Below are positions 26,397 to 31,088 of a DNA stretch of 64,000 bases, piece by piece. Position numbers and translations under genes: made by a program. Under the pieces are notes generated by a model that saw only the letters and a program-made list of their open reading frames with translations, did not search any database and was not told the DNA's origin. The stretch spans positions 62,001-126,000 of the forward strand of contig NZ_OBEF01000009.1 in NCBI RefSeq assembly GCF_900215375.1. The letters run 5' to 3'. This DNA comes from Enterobacter sp. CC120223-11. Lineage in GTDB: Bacteria > Pseudomonadota > Gammaproteobacteria > Enterobacterales > Enterobacteriaceae. Numbering within the stretch: the first letter of the stretch is position 1; every line of letters begins with the position of its first letter.

Positions 26397-27212
26397 CTAA
26401 CGCCGCAGCGCTTCCAGAAAAGCCTGCGGCGTGCGCTCACCTAGCTTCTTCTGCACTTTCCCCGTGTTCCACAATTCACACAGCCGCTGCGCCAGTGCGT
26501 CAGGCTCGCTAGCCGCCGGGATCAGCGTGCTCAGGTTTTCCGTGAGGGTTATCGCCGTGCCACTTGCTTCCGGCTGGCGGGTAACGGTCAGCCCCGGCAT
26601 CTCAATTGAGAGCCATTTTATGGCTTCAGTCTCAAGACATTGAATATCAGCCGGACAGCGTGCCAGCATTTCAGTCAGCCAGTTTTTGACCAGCGGGAGC
26701 GACACCCCGGAAAACACACGCGCCGAGCACCAGCCGCTGACAGGCTCACGCGCCCACAGCAAATGATGTTCGCCGCCGTCGTCCATAGTCATCGACAATC
26801 TGCGGTAGTGCAGCGTCAGCGTATCAGGCAGATGACCGCCCTTCAGCGCCCGGACGCCCTGCGGCCCCGACCTTTCCCGCTGGTGCGCCGGGCGAAGATA
26901 GCGGTTAAGAGTTGCTCTGGAAACCGCAATCCCCAACCCTTCGGTCACCATAAACAGCAGTTCATCCAGCGGGGCGTGCAGCGTGTCGCGCAGGGCATTC
27001 ACCACCGCTATTTGTTCAAGTCTCATCGCTTTGTGTACCACATCAGGCGTGGTCGGGCGATCGCCTGTCTGCTCGCGATTACGCCAGCGCCGCACGGTAG
27101 TCACCGAAATCCCCAGCTCTTTAGCCAGCTCACGGTCGCTTTTATCGGACTCCTGCAAATAGCGGCGAACTCGCGGTGTGGTGGTGGCATTGGCGTGCAG
27201 CTTAATTTCCAT
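26397..27212 (-). CDS. Transposase-derived helix-turn-helix protein (IS481-like, degenerate DDE)
   Basis: This 271-residue protein has an N-terminal helix-turn-helix (S-D-R-E-L-A-K-E-L-G-I-S-V-T-T-V-R-R-W-R, residues about 25-45) and a second helical region ending A-T-L-N-R-Y-L. This is the two-part DNA-binding layout of IS481-type transposases. The rest resembles a DDE domain, ending in L-G-E-R-T-P-Q-A-F-L-E-A-L, but the expected catalytic T-D-N-G is absent; the corresponding place reads about L-E-T-E-A. The ATG at 27212 follows AGGA at 7 bases. No terminal inverted repeats are seen around it. It is divergent from the EIIC operon, so it may be a domesticated regulator. Function is inferred only. 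Confidence 0.6.
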   Translation of the reverse strand: MEIKLHANATTTPRVRRYLQESDKSDRELAKELGISVTTVRRWRNREQTGDRPTTPDVVHKAMRLEQIAVVNALRDTLHAPLDELLFMVTEGLGIAVSRATLNRYLRPAHQRERSGPQGVRALKGGHLPDTLTLHYRRLSMTMDDGGEHHLLWAREPVSGWCSARVFSGVSLPLVKNWLTEMLARCPADIQCLETEAIKWLSIEMPGLTVTRQPEASGTAITLTENLSTLIPAASEPDALAQRLCELWNTGKVQKKLGERTPQAFLEALRR

Positions 27213-27368
27213 CGTCAATTCCTGGTGGCTTCATAGAACCAATCATATGAGACTTACATTATCAACGCGCTGGCATTGTGACCGAATTCACCTTTCACCG
27301 CCTGGCTTTCATTGATAATCCGCAGTCATAACACACAACCCGACTCTCAGTCTCGTGCGGAGCTCACA

Positions 27369-28688
27369 ATGAACAATGTTCTGGGATTTTTAGAAGCCAA
27401 GCTGATGCCGCTGGCGGCAAAGGCTTCGCAGCAGCGCCACCTGTGCGCCATTCGCGGTGCCTATGTTTCATTCATGCCGTTTATTATTGTCGGCTCGATC
27501 CTGCTGGTGATTTCCTCGTTCCCGAATCAGGGGTATCAGCAGTTCATGTCTCACACCTTTGGTGACAGCTGGAGCAGCATCGTCGAGATCCCGTTCAACG
27601 CGGTGTTCTCCACCATGTCGCTGTTTATCAGCTTCCTCGTCGCCTATCGCCTGGCGGAACACTACAAAGAAGACCGCCTTTCCTGCGGGATCCTGGCGCT
27701 GGTCAGCTTCCTGATCCTCACCCCTTTCATTAAGGTGGCGGAAAACGGCGGCATCACCGTGATGCCCGTCGAATGGATCGGCACCAAGGGGCTGTTCGTG
27801 TCGATGATCGGTTCCCTGCTATGGACCGAGCTATTCTGCTGGCTGAAGCGCAAGAAGTTGGTCATCAAAATGCCGGACGGCGTGCCGCCTGCGGTGCAGG
27901 AGTCTTTCGCAGCACTCATCCCGGCGCTGCTGGTAATGATCCTGGTGCTGGTTATCCGTATCGGCTTTGAAAATACGCATTACAGGACTATTCACCAGTT
28001 CATTTATGAAGTGGTCGCCACGCCGGTGCGCCACTACGGCACCTCCTACTTTGGCGCGCTGATGACGGTGTTCAGCATCACTATTCTGTGGTCCGTCGGC
28101 ATTAACTCCGGCTCGATGATCAACGGCATCATTCGCCCGCTGTGGATGGAGAACCAGACCGACAACATCGCCGCCATTCAGGCAGGCGTGACGCCGCCGC
28201 ACATCATTACCGAGCAGTTCTTCGACATGATCTGGATGGGCGGCGCGGGGGCCACGCTGTCGCTGGTTATCGCGATGCTGATTTTCGCCCGCAGTAAAAA
28301 CATGCGCGAAGTGGCACGCCTCGGTGCAGGCGCGTCCATTTTCAATATTAACGAACCGGTGCTGTTCGGCCTGCCGGTGATCATGAACCCGATCATGCTG
28401 ATCCCGTTCAACCTTGTGCCGCTGGTGCTGGTGACCATCCAGTATGTGGCCATGAAAATTGGCGCGGTCGCCGTCACCACCGGGGTGTTTATTCCGTGGA
28501 CGCTGCCGCCGGTGCTGAGCGGGTTTATCGTCACCGGGCACCTCTCCGGCAGCGTGATGCAAATCCTCAACCTGCTGATTGGCGCGATGCTCTACCTGCC
28601 GTTTATGCGCATTCTCGACAAGCAGTACCGCGCCGCGGAAATCATCACCGAAACAGAAACCAGCAAGCTTGCAAAACAGGAGTCGTAA
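27369..28688 (+). CDS. PTS transporter subunit EIIC, lactose/cellobiose family
   Basis: EIIC forms the sugar-translocating membrane channel of a phosphotransferase system. This 439-residue protein has about ten hydrophobic segments and the family signatures F-I-I-V-G-S-I-L-L-V-I near residue 50 and N-I-N-E-P-V-L-F-G-L-P near residue 325, as in CelB/ChbC-type subunits. The ATG at 27369 follows CGGAG at 6 bases. No EIIA or EIIB gene is in the window, so phosphate would have to come from components elsewhere, or the protein may act without coupling. It heads an operon with a glycosylasparaginase (2-base gap) and an M17 peptidase. Substrate is inferred to be a GlcNAc- or glycan-containing amino acid. 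Confidence 0.88.
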   Translation: MNNVLGFLEAKLMPLAAKASQQRHLCAIRGAYVSFMPFIIVGSILLVISSFPNQGYQQFMSHTFGDSWSSIVEIPFNAVFSTMSLFISFLVAYRLAEHYKEDRLSCGILALVSFLILTPFIKVAENGGITVMPVEWIGTKGLFVSMIGSLLWTELFCWLKRKKLVIKMPDGVPPAVQESFAALIPALLVMILVLVIRIGFENTHYRTIHQFIYEVVATPVRHYGTSYFGALMTVFSITILWSVGINSGSMINGIIRPLWMENQTDNIAAIQAGVTPPHIITEQFFDMIWMGGAGATLSLVIAMLIFARSKNMREVARLGAGASIFNINEPVLFGLPVIMNPIMLIPFNLVPLVLVTIQYVAMKIGAVAVTTGVFIPWTLPPVLSGFIVTGHLSGSVMQILNLLIGAMLYLPFMRILDKQYRAAEIITETETSKLAKQES

Positions 28689-28690
28689 CG

Positions 28691-29644
28691 ATGTGGGGAA
28701 TTATTGCAACCTGGCGTATGGCGCTGGAAGGGGTTACCGAGGCCGCCACTCAGCTTGCCGCAGGGAGCGGTGCATCGGCGAGTATCGTCGATGCCGTTGC
28801 CGCCGTTGAAGATTTTCCGTACTACAAATCCGTGGGCTACGGCGGATTGCCGACGGAGAACGGCGAAGTGGAGCTGGATGCCGCCTTTATGGATGGCGAT
28901 ACGCTGGCATTTGGCGCGGTGGGCAATCTGATTGATATCGCCAACCCGGTGCGCGTGGCGCAAGCGCTGAGCCGCCAGCGTTACAACTCGCTACTGGTTG
29001 GCCAGGGCGCGCGCGAATGGGCGCTGGAGCAGGGCTTCGCCGAAAAAACTATGCTCACCGACCGCGCGATGCAGCATTACCGCAAGCGCTGCCGAGAAAC
29101 GCTGGATAAAGGCCTGAGTCCCTATGACGGCCACGACACCGTCGGTATTATCGGCCTCGACAAGCAAGGCTCGATGAGCGTCGCGACCTCCACCAGCGGC
29201 CTGTTTATGAAAAAGCGCGGGCGCATCGGTGACTCCCCAATTATGGGCTCCGGTTTCTACTGTGACAGCGAAACTGGCGCGGCCACCGCCACGGGCGTGG
29301 GTGAAGATTTGATGAAGGGCTGTACCAGCTATGAAATCGTTCGCCGCATGGCGGGCGGCATGACGCCGCAGCAGGCCGCCGATTCGGTGGTGTTTGAACT
29401 GGAAGACAAGCTGATGTCGCGATTTGGCCGCGCAGGCGATCTCTCGGTGGTGTGCATGAACCGCAAGGGCGAGTTTGGCGCGGCGACCAACATCAAAACC
29501 TTCTCGTTTGTGGTGGCGACGGAGAAACAGCCGCTGACCGTGTTCCGTGCGGAACGCCGCGCAGAAAAAACCCATTATCAGCCAGTCGACGATGAATGGA
29601 TGCAGGCCTACGCCGCACGCATTCGCGCCCCGATTGAGGAGTAA
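28691..29644 (+). CDS. N4-(beta-N-acetylglucosaminyl)-L-asparaginase (glycosylasparaginase) family
   Basis: The family cleaves the GlcNAc-asparagine bond of N-linked glycans, releasing aspartate and the sugar amine. The 317-residue protein follows the human lysosomal enzyme through its length: Trp8 in A-T-W-R, V-G-Y-G-G-L-P near residue 48, L-D-A-A-F-M-D-G, the autocleavage site G-H-D|T with Thr150 as the new N-terminal nucleophile, and R-G-R-I-G-D-S-P-I (Arg178, Asp181 bind the substrate amino acid). This fits glycosylasparaginase better than IaaA-type isoaspartyl peptidases. It has no signal peptide, so the substrate must be imported. It sits 2 bases after the EIIC gene and 4 bases before the peptidase gene. 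Confidence 0.85.
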   Translation: MWGIIATWRMALEGVTEAATQLAAGSGASASIVDAVAAVEDFPYYKSVGYGGLPTENGEVELDAAFMDGDTLAFGAVGNLIDIANPVRVAQALSRQRYNSLLVGQGAREWALEQGFAEKTMLTDRAMQHYRKRCRETLDKGLSPYDGHDTVGIIGLDKQGSMSVATSTSGLFMKKRGRIGDSPIMGSGFYCDSETGAATATGVGEDLMKGCTSYEIVRRMAGGMTPQQAADSVVFELEDKLMSRFGRAGDLSVVCMNRKGEFGAATNIKTFSFVVATEKQPLTVFRAERRAEKTHYQPVDDEWMQAYAARIRAPIEE

Positions 29645-29648
29645 AGGA

Positions 29649-31088
29649 ATGGAATACCGCATTATCGCTGAGGCTGCTGCTCTTGCCGAAGGCAGCCATT
29701 TAATCACCTCGCCGCGCAGCCCGCTGCTGGCCTCTCTCGACCTGTCCGCTATGGGCGAAATGCTCGCGCTGACTGAAAAAGGTGAAGTGGCAGACTGCCG
29801 CTTTGCCTGTGCGCCTTTTTCACGCGTGACGCTAATCCCGGAATCAGCCTGGCACGATACTTTGACGGACGAGTTGCTGGCCCATCTGCGTCCGCTATTC
29901 AAAGCCCCCGTAAGCGAAAACGTGGCGCTGGATTTCTCCGTCATGACCGAACCTCGCGTGCGTGATTCAGCGCTGCGCTGGTTCTTCAACCTCGATCATC
30001 AACTCGACGATCTGGGTCTGAAAACGACGGCTGGTCGCAGCGTGCGGGTCAAAACGCTGACCGTTTTCTGCCAGCCCTCACAGCAGGAAGCCTTGCAGAA
30101 TGCCTGTCGCCAGCAGTCAGCCATCGCCAGCGGGATGCTCGCGGCTCGCCGTCTGGCAGATATTCCCTCGGAGACCTGCACGCCGCAGTTTGTTGTGGAG
30201 GAAGCTCAGAAGCTTTGCGCCACATTCCCGGCGCTGCGCTGCGAAGTGCTGGATGAACACGCCATTCAGGAGCAAGGACTTGGGCTGCTGCATGCCGTCG
30301 GTAAAGGTTCCACGCGTCCTCCTCGTCTGCTGGCTATTCACTATGATGGCGCGGCAAACGGCCCGGTTCGCACCTACGTCGGCAAAGGCATTACCTTCGA
30401 TACCGGCGGCCTGTGGCTGAAGGAAGGCGCGGGTATGTACACCATGAAGTACGACATGTGCGGCGCGGCGAACGTGCTGGGGCTGATGCTGAGCATCGCC
30501 GAACTGGTGCTGCCGGTGCGAGTGATGGGCGTGCTGGCGCTGGCAGAAAATGCCATTGGCCCGGATGCAATGCAGCCCGGAAGCGTGGCGCGAGCCTGCA
30601 ACGGCATGACGGTGGAAATCAACAACACCGACGCCGAAGGCCGCCTGGTGCTGGCGGACGCCATTGCCTGGGCCAGCCAGCGCCATAAGCAGACGCATTT
30701 CATTATCGATATGGCGACATTAACGGGTGCGGTAGTGAAAGCGCTGGGCTATGAGCTGAGCGGGCTGATGACGCAAAGTGAAACCCTTCGGGAGCAGCTC
30801 ACAAGCGCCGGGAGGAAAAGCGGCGATGAAGTGTGGTCGCTGCCGCTGGATAATCGCCTGAAAAAGCAGACCGAAAGCGCGATTGCCGATCTGTGCAACA
30901 CGCCGACCAATAACGCCGCGATAAGCGCCTCAGCGGCTTGGCTGCTGCAATACTTCTGCCCCCCGGAAATCCCCTGGGCGCATCTGGACGTCAGCGGCAC
31001 GGCATTGTGGCGCGAAGGAGGAAGAAGCGTGGCCTCCGGCAGGCCGATTCCGCTGCTGGTGCAGCATCTGTTGGACGATCTTAAGTAG
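29649..31088 (+). CDS. M17 leucyl aminopeptidase family protein
   Basis: M17 enzymes are dimetal aminopeptidases that remove N-terminal residues in the cytosol. The C-terminal domain of this 479-residue protein carries the signature N-T-D-A-E-G-R-L near residue 325. It also has the metal-binding strand V-G-K-G-I-T-F-D-T-G-G and the following M-K-Y-D-M-C-G-A-A. It is not PepA or PepB: the N-terminal 150 residues are divergent and cysteine-bearing. The ATG at 29649 has GAGGAG 7 bases upstream. As the last gene of the EIIC/glycosylasparaginase operon it may trim the peptide part of imported glycopeptides. That role is inference. Confidence 0.85.
   Translation: MEYRIIAEAAALAEGSHLITSPRSPLLASLDLSAMGEMLALTEKGEVADCRFACAPFSRVTLIPESAWHDTLTDELLAHLRPLFKAPVSENVALDFSVMTEPRVRDSALRWFFNLDHQLDDLGLKTTAGRSVRVKTLTVFCQPSQQEALQNACRQQSAIASGMLAARRLADIPSETCTPQFVVEEAQKLCATFPALRCEVLDEHAIQEQGLGLLHAVGKGSTRPPRLLAIHYDGAANGPVRTYVGKGITFDTGGLWLKEGAGMYTMKYDMCGAANVLGLMLSIAELVLPVRVMGVLALAENAIGPDAMQPGSVARACNGMTVEINNTDAEGRLVLADAIAWASQRHKQTHFIIDMATLTGAVVKALGYELSGLMTQSETLREQLTSAGRKSGDEVWSLPLDNRLKKQTESAIADLCNTPTNNAAISASAAWLLQYFCPPEIPWAHLDVSGTALWREGGRSVASGRPIPLLVQHLLDDLK

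Follow-up and report, generated by a model that had tools for sequence, protein, structure and literature searches.

A probable operon for the catabolism of glycosyl-asparagine, with a divergent transposase-like gene, in Enterobacter and its relatives

The stretch of DNA analysed here (the window) comprises 64,000 nucleotides of the 4.69 Mb genome of Enterobacter sp. CC120223-11 (contig NZ_OBEF01000009.1, positions 62,001 to 126,000 of the forward strand). It contains three tightly spaced genes encoding, in order, the membrane component (EIIC) of a sugar phosphotransferase system (PTS), a putative glycosylasparaginase and an M17 aminopeptidase (Table 1). The gaps between them are 2 bases (EIIC to asparaginase) and 4 bases (asparaginase to M17), and the three products matched their Pfam families above the gathering cut-offs (PTS_EIIC, E = 5.9e-60; Asparaginase_2, PF01112, 1.7e-61; Peptidase_M17, PF00883, 1.8e-104). 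NCBIfam placed the EIIC in the lacE/cellobiose IIC family (lacE/TIGR00410) with 437 bits against a cut-off of 236. These matches and the coordinates bear out the three-gene layout described in an initial annotation made from the sequence alone, which had recognised the genes and missed three further features: a regulator-like gene that diverges from them, the motif in the promoter and the fact that no IIA or IIB gene adjoins the EIIC gene. The operon and the divergent gene are flanked by an ArsC-family gene, which we take to be yfgD, on one side and by hda on the other, and the nearest of the named loci is that of Pluralibacter sp. UBA7423, with an asparaginase identity of 99%.

Table 1. Positions in the window of the three genes, the divergent gene and the predicted promoter elements.
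Feature	Position	Strand	Details
EIIC	27369..28688	+	Lactose/cellobiose (lacE) PTS family; Asn246 codon 28104-28106; Glu329 codon 28353-28355
Predicted cytosolic glycosylasparaginase, AsnA2-like	28691..29644	+	His148-Asp149-Thr150 autocleavage site (predicted); Thr150 codon 29138-29140; W8, R178, D181
M17 (leucyl-type) aminopeptidase	29649..31088	+	Catalytic motifs intact
Divergent IS481-transposase-like protein, putative regulator	26397..27212	-	Catalytic residues lost; conserved ATG at 27212, MEIKLHANATTTP
CRP-like site	27277..27292	.	TGTGACCGAATTCACC; 9/10 consensus bases; centre 41.5 bases before inferred transcription start
Inferred -10 element of operon promoter	27314..27319	+	GATAAT

The three genes are a real unit and not a chance arrangement. 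In a survey of 198 Enterobacteriaceae genomes, with E thresholds that we set at 1e-40, 1e-150 and 1e-100 for the EIIC, asparaginase and M17 proteins, relatives of all three were found in the identical 18 genomes and were adjacent in every one. The unit and the divergent gene were present together in 52 of 52 named Enterobacterales loci (L034-L085) and, with four added loci, in 56 of 56, one record being counted twice (as L080 and L331). The initial annotation had proposed co-occurrence of the three families as a check and had allowed that they might never travel together in related genomes, which these counts exclude. A megablast search of 20,395 E. coli records gave no match. Relatives of the ArsC-family gene and hda are absent from the flanks in Klebsiella spallanzanii, K. 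grimontii and K. michiganensis (L045, L054 and L068), and likewise at the seven loci that carry IIB and IIA genes (see below); the operon has therefore been relocated as one block. The contig of L084, which bears the label Chryseobacterium sp. 18061, is probably a mixed culture or a mislabel, since it carries the enterobacterial operon together with the ArsC-family gene and hda.

The best match of the operon asparaginase among solved structures was to a glycosylasparaginase, that of Elizabethkingia (Flavobacterium) (1P4K; 188 bits, E = 2.5e-54, residues 4-279 of 317), while the best isoaspartyl peptidase/asparaginase chains reached 117 bits. The landmarks named in the initial annotation (the His-Asp-Thr autocleavage site, Trp8 and Arg178/Asp181) are all present when compared residue for residue with 1P4K (W8=W11, T150=T152, R178=R180, D181=D183, T201/G202=T203/G204), and W8, R178, D181, T201 and G202 are each kept in >97% of 113 sequences. 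In glycosylasparaginases these residues serve binding and catalysis. As that annotation also held, no signal peptide was evident by eye, the N-terminus being MWGIIATWRM with Trp8 aligned to Trp11 of the solved chain. In a tree of 99 asparaginase rows, which lacked the AsnA2 sequence of Lacticaseibacillus casei itself, a group of 97 that includes the asparaginases of clusters resembling the L. casei alf-2 operon had a support of 98/98. Outside it stood the secreted 1P4K and the second PF01112 protein of the window's genome, on very long branches (6.6 and 10). The reading that we favour is that the operon encodes an AsnA2-like cytosolic glycosylasparaginase (EC 3.5.1.26). The 17 enterobacterial rows formed a single clade (100/99) among Bacillota rows, which would fit a transfer from Bacillota to Enterobacterales in a tree whose base is unresolved.

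The alf-2 operon of L. casei BL23 encodes AlfH, AlfC, AsdA, AlfR2, PepV, AsnA2 and SugK (PMC6960285). In that paper, purified AsnA2 was self-cleaved and freed N-acetylglucosamine (GlcNAc) from GlcNAc-Asn at 20.91 umol/mg/min and was slower on the 6-fucosylated form (0.26), growth required asnA2 and sugK, and SugK phosphorylates the sugar after cleavage (PMC6960285). Since the 6-fucosylated form is cleaved, if slowly, a substituent at C6 is not excluded for an AsnA2-type enzyme. The legend to Fig. 7 of the paper, on related asnA2 clusters, names L. curvatus and L. sakei as two of the strains and explains PTS as one of the genes depicted; beyond that, PTS appears in one reference title only (PMC6960285). 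A review describes the L. sakei homologue as induced in meat, and the mutant as faring worse in sausage. The statement in the initial annotation that no system of this makeup had been described can therefore not be upheld: cytosolic use of sugar-asparagine is already known, and the operon is probably a PTS-fed variant of it.

The operon, as read here, and alf-2 have in common a cytosolic glycosylasparaginase without a signal peptide, a cytosolic peptidase, a regulator and the import of a sugar-asparagine. Unlike the operon, alf-2 relies on import by a major facilitator superfamily (MFS) permease, a ROK kinase acting after cleavage, a fucosidase, the M20 peptidase PepV rather than an M17 enzyme, and a GntR regulator rather than a transposase-like one, and no CRP-type promoter is known for it. 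BLAST searches (1e-8) found no relative of AlfH, AlfC, SugK, AlfR2 or PepV within 3 kb of the asparaginase gene in the 56 Enterobacterales loci. The PTS-linked asnA2 clusters of lactobacilli, such as that on an L. curvatus plasmid (L032), share the AsnA2-type asparaginase, a lacE-family EIIC of the Asn type described below and a cytosolic peptidase, but differ in having Sapep/PepV, a GrdB-like protein, a GntR LSA1692 regulator and an EIIC of another clade (b). The N,N'-diacetylchitobiose PTS (ChbBCA-type; 3QNQ, filed as a cellobiose-specific IIC) shares the EIIC family, whereas the operon has Asn for His250, no adjacent IIA or IIB and no phospho-glycosidase. The fra locus of Salmonella imports a sugar-asparagine (fructose-asparagine) and recovers sugar and aspartate, as the operon would, but with an unrelated type of asparaginase, a non-PTS transporter, a kinase and a deglycase, and its substrate is an Amadori rather than an N-glycosidic compound.

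Relatives of the asparaginase at 50-62% identity occur in Clostridia, Erysipelotrichia and Lactobacillales. At a distance of up to 7 kb from the asparaginase gene, the 71 Bacillota loci carried EIIC in 49, IIB in 42, IIA in 29, Sapep/PepV in 60, a GrdB-like gene in 37, CutC in 29, GntR in 29, a ROK kinase in 9 and M17 in none; among the 49 with EIIC, IIB was present in 41 and IIA in 28. The peptidase beside the asparaginase is thus M17 in 56 of 56 Enterobacterales loci and M20 Sapep/PepV in 60 of 71 Bacillota loci, two unrelated families. The dimetal aminopeptidase of the initial annotation is confirmed by the Peptidase_M17 match and by the retained motifs VGKGITFDTGG, MKYDMCGAANVLG and NTDAEGRLVL, the metal-site motifs of M17 enzymes. 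At one locus (L070) the M17 gene and the divergent gene are both split.

If the PTS phosphorylates its sugar on entry, SugK would be needless in a PTS-fed pathway and exclusion between PTS and ROK kinase is to be expected. None of the 49 Bacillota PTS loci had a ROK gene at up to 7 kb from the asparaginase, against 9 of the 22 without EIIC (Fisher 7e-6, relatedness ignored). Of these nine genes, seven are closely related to SugK (49-100%) and at most 2.1 kb away; the other two are weak (27%: L097, 5.9 kb off, and L315), and with the seven only the Fisher value is 1e-4. In Enterobacterales, a ROK gene lies about 7 kb off on the opposite strand in 16 of 56 loci, with none within 3 kb. One of the kinase-linked clusters (L335, from the Lactobacillales draw) has GntR, Sapep/PepV, asparaginase, ROK kinase, MFS permease and GH29 fucosidase genes in a row, which is the L. 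casei alf-2 set minus asdA. The operon asparaginase is 52-54% identical to those of seven kinase-linked clusters (L335, L336, L337, L345, L352, L308 and L309), whose SugK-type kinases are 48-100% identical to the one in L335.

In the lacE-family structure 3QNQ, His250 and Glu334 lie at the sugar. Asn246 of the window's EIIC stands in the place of this active-site His, and the active-site Glu is kept as Glu329, as it is in every readable linked EIIC. Asn was found at the His column in 77 of 77 readable asparaginase-linked EIICs, one further piece being gapped there (the split gene in L109, whose second piece has Asn), while the column held His in 45, Asn in 5, Ser in 2 and Thr in 1 of 53 unlinked EIICs taken from the window's genome and ten genomes of Bacillota. 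In a second set, separate from that in which the rule was found, Asn was present in 24 of 24 cluster EIICs; at L323 the cluster EIIC has Asn, while a further EIIC at a distance of about 6 kb, which is 39% identical to the window's EIIC and was set apart in the count, has His. In a maximum-likelihood tree made with the motif columns removed (76 of 90 rows, long rows and further Asn rows having been left out by us), the linked EIICs fell into two groups. Group a (12 rows; Enterobacterales with Neobacillus, Thermosediminibacter and Tepidanaerobacter) joins His-type proteins including 3QNQ (96/90), itself one of the His-type proteins closest to the window's EIIC, and group b (17 rows) holds other Bacillota. 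This topology weakly suggests two origins of the Asn.

The CRP-like site and the GATAAT element upstream of the EIIC gene place the centre of the site at -41.5 from the inferred start, which is predicted to lie near 27326; class II CRP promoters are spaced in this way. The same arrangement was found in 45 of 48 scored loci, 41 of them with 9/10 consensus bases; it was lacking in L061, L074 and L075, and four of the 52 loci were unscored, the start not having been found. At the seven loci with IIB and IIA the CRP-like site had 9 bases in one, 7-8 in four, was absent in one and was unscored in one. Since the CRP pattern occurs in the window at chance frequency (2 found, 1.45 expected), its weight lies in position and conservation. 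A palindrome, TCATATGA, was considered as a universal operator and rejected, the longer block AATCATATGA being present in 25 of 52 loci only.

The product of the divergent gene matches the IS481 profile, with a helix-turn-helix (HTH) plus an integrase fold. A profile search of solved structures with it gave no significant match (best E 0.12); a fold comparison (VIA-align), covering mainly residues 114-271, did. In an alignment of seven operon-linked proteins with four IS481 transposases, all seven have other residues in place of the Asp of HxDVKYLP and the Glu of NGMVERFNG, which with the Asp of LTDN we take to be the D-D-E catalytic residues, and the LTDN position holds Glu in five, Gln in one and a gap in one. 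The gene is under purifying selection: the ratio of nonsynonymous to synonymous substitution (dN/dS) in four pairs was 0.11-0.25 for this gene and 0.01-0.08 for the asparaginase. The gene is divergent from and upstream of EIIC in 54 of 56 loci; in the other two (L328 and L329), and likewise in L366, it is found past the M17 gene and on the other strand, still linked. That it is a decayed insertion sequence was rejected in view of this dN/dS and of the relative linked in 56 of 56 loci. It is likely a domesticated IS481 transposase that acts as the specific regulator of the operon.

The initial annotation had proposed that GlcNAc-Asn or short glycopeptides are imported and broken down, and we favour this reading because the asparaginase groups with the alf-2-type enzymes and because the three genes travel together; the adjoining peptidases also agree with it. 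Its view of the EIIC as the route of entry stands only in part: the EIIC is linked in all 56 Enterobacterales loci, but alone it is not a complete PTS, its IIA and IIB are not adjacent and its active-site His is replaced. From these sequence comparisons we consider it likely that the genes form a CRP-activated operon for glycosyl-asparagine catabolism with the divergent HTH protein as regulator. In the proposed pathway the EIIC, served in most enterobacteria by IIA and IIB in trans, would import GlcNAc-Asn or a very short N-glycopeptide, the PTS would phosphorylate the sugar at C6 and the M17 aminopeptidase would trim flanking amino acids. The glycosylasparaginase would then cleave the N-glycosidic amide to aspartate and (6-phospho-)GlcNAc-amine, which would decay to ammonia and GlcNAc(-6P) for NagA, an enzyme encoded in the window's genome, while the divergent transposase-derived HTH protein would provide specific control. 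A broader proposal, which we put forward tentatively and with slightly less than even confidence, is that there is a PTS class for glycosyl-amino acids, in which Asn-type EIICs import and phosphorylate GlcNAc-Asn and the phospho-glycosylasparagine is cleaved in the cytosol, with different peptidases, two EIIC lineages (in the favoured tree) and, here, control by a domesticated IS481 protein.

Several observations weigh against these proposals. Replacement of the active-site His by Asn might weaken or abolish phosphotransfer, and five of the 53 unlinked EIICs also carry Asn there. A single origin of the Asn-type EIICs was not rejected (approximately unbiased test p 0.123, log-likelihood difference 20) and the pair test had 3 pairs only; few independent events therefore lie behind the striking count of Asn. 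A residue marking the PTS-linked asparaginases was looked for in the alignment, but no single position tells them apart from the enzymes of kinase clusters; the idea was rejected, and nothing points to adaptation to a phosphorylated substrate. In L. casei, pepV was dispensable, and GlcNAc-Asn did not support growth of the bacterium itself (PMC6960285). IIA and IIB genes are not beside EIIC in 45 of the 52 named Enterobacterales loci, a count that includes L066, whose contig ends directly after the M17 gene; they follow M17 as IIB and IIA in the other seven (Serratia, Hafnia, Klebsiella sp. BIGb0407, Cedecea, Atlantibacter, Izhakiella and Providencia).

In the window's genome, an orphan IIB-IIA pair (L216:6209-6839; G000:C35:16209-16839) lies between a GGDEF gene and, one small gene on, rpoC (rpoC and neighbours named by eye), and no EIIC is beside the pair in this genome or in three relatives. 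By our count of the matches listed, an IIA at least 80% identical to the orphan IIA was found in 42 of the 198 genomes, comprising 16 of 16 operon genomes without a local IIA and IIB pair, neither of the two with one (G126 and G171) and 26 of the 180 genomes without the operon. The absence of local genes was checked in 17-kb loci for G041, G084, G009, G134, G144 and G192, and further for G071 and G019 (the latter with a local IIB only), the others through the named loci of the same contigs; the G074 contig stops after M17. Because the orphan-type IIA is present in all 16, it is possible that the orphan pair supplies IIA and IIB in trans. Its presence in 26 operon-free genomes is a further point against this, since the pair must therefore have other uses or be a relic; other IIA/IIB sets of the window's genome could also be the partners.

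These points lead to an alternative in which the EIIC is uncoupled from phosphorylation and serves as a facilitator through which GlcNAc-Asn enters unphosphorylated, the asparaginase cleaves this plain substrate and a general kinase phosphorylates the GlcNAc. The loss of the active-site His, the 45 loci without adjacent partners and an asparaginase indistinguishable from the enzymes of kinase-linked clusters would all suit it. We nevertheless think it unlikely, since Asn-type EIICs also occur where the cluster encodes IIA and IIB (9 of 56 Enterobacterales loci, one record counted twice, and 28 IIA and 41 IIB in the 49 Bacillota loci), the Cys of IIB (CxxGMSTS) is retained in those inspected, the active-site Glu is kept in the readable linked EIICs and no ROK kinase is near the asparaginase in the 49 Bacillota PTS loci. 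Furthermore, one of the five unlinked Asn-type EIICs, in Clostridium neonatale (L165:2922-7908), stands beside a gene for MupG (6-phospho-N-acetylmuramidase), a family named for acting on 6-phospho-N-acetylmuramyl sugars, together with a PRD regulator and a GrdB-like gene and with no asparaginase within the locus. Since Asn-type EIICs coexist with IIA and IIB and, in L165, with a 6-phospho-sugar enzyme family, the Asn would seem to reflect a change of substrate rather than lost phosphorylation.

Glycosylasparaginases and isoaspartyl peptidases share the residues that bind the aspartyl part. This, the common Ntn superfamily and the two peptidase families that accompany the asparaginase would be compatible with an isoaspartyl (beta-aspartyl) dipeptidase in an operon that scavenges damaged or beta-linked peptides with M17 or PepV partners. 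We regard this as improbable, given that the partner is a sugar PTS EIIC, that the scores lie nearer to glycosylasparaginase, that the genome's second PF01112 protein outscores the operon asparaginase (384 bits) and that glycosylasparaginase activity has been measured for an enzyme of its kind, AsnA2 (PMC6960285). Slighter still is the chance of another conjugate cleaved in the same way (a larger glycopeptide, or Asn bearing a different hexosamine or a hexose): the sequence does not determine the sugar and the EIIC site is unlike that of ChbC-type EIICs, but EIIC group a joins the 3QNQ-type proteins, whose substrate class is chitobiose, and L. casei AsnA2 prefers GlcNAc-Asn to its fucosylated form (PMC6960285).

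If the proposed glycosyl-asparagine pathway is correct, Enterobacter, Klebsiella grimontii and its relatives, Kluyvera, Hafnia, Serratia, others and gut Bacillota would gain a feeding route on the sugar-asparagine stub left on host or food glycoproteins by proteases and endoglycosidases. No paper that sets out the PTS version or reports the enterobacterial operon was found in the open-access literature, and the Asn-type EIIC, the exclusion between PTS and kinase and the probable use of a domesticated transposase as regulator were undescribed in the literature searched. The proposal offers a testable residue signature in the EIIC, predicts GlcNAc-6P-Asn as an intermediate and presents a clear example of a transposase that has probably become a local regulator.

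Some further genes accompany these clusters. A selenium-free GrdB-like protein (NF041545; e.g. L032:9695-10216) is present in 37 of the 49 PTS-type clusters and none of the 22 others, and its model number is close to NF041547, the GntR_LSA1692 family of the same clusters. The 29 Bacillota loci with a CutC-family gene (L089-L113 and others, e.g. L097:10076-10816) include 5 of the 22 without PTS; CutC may serve the sugar-asparagine pathway, acting for instance on the sugar amine, instead of handling copper. The remaining four unlinked Asn-type EIICs have no recognisable GrdB-like or MupG neighbour. At L202:2249-4233 and L195:5328-7245 a small protein precedes the Asn-type EIIC; that of L202 matches the MgsA AAA+ C-terminal domain, and its L195 counterpart is similar by eye.

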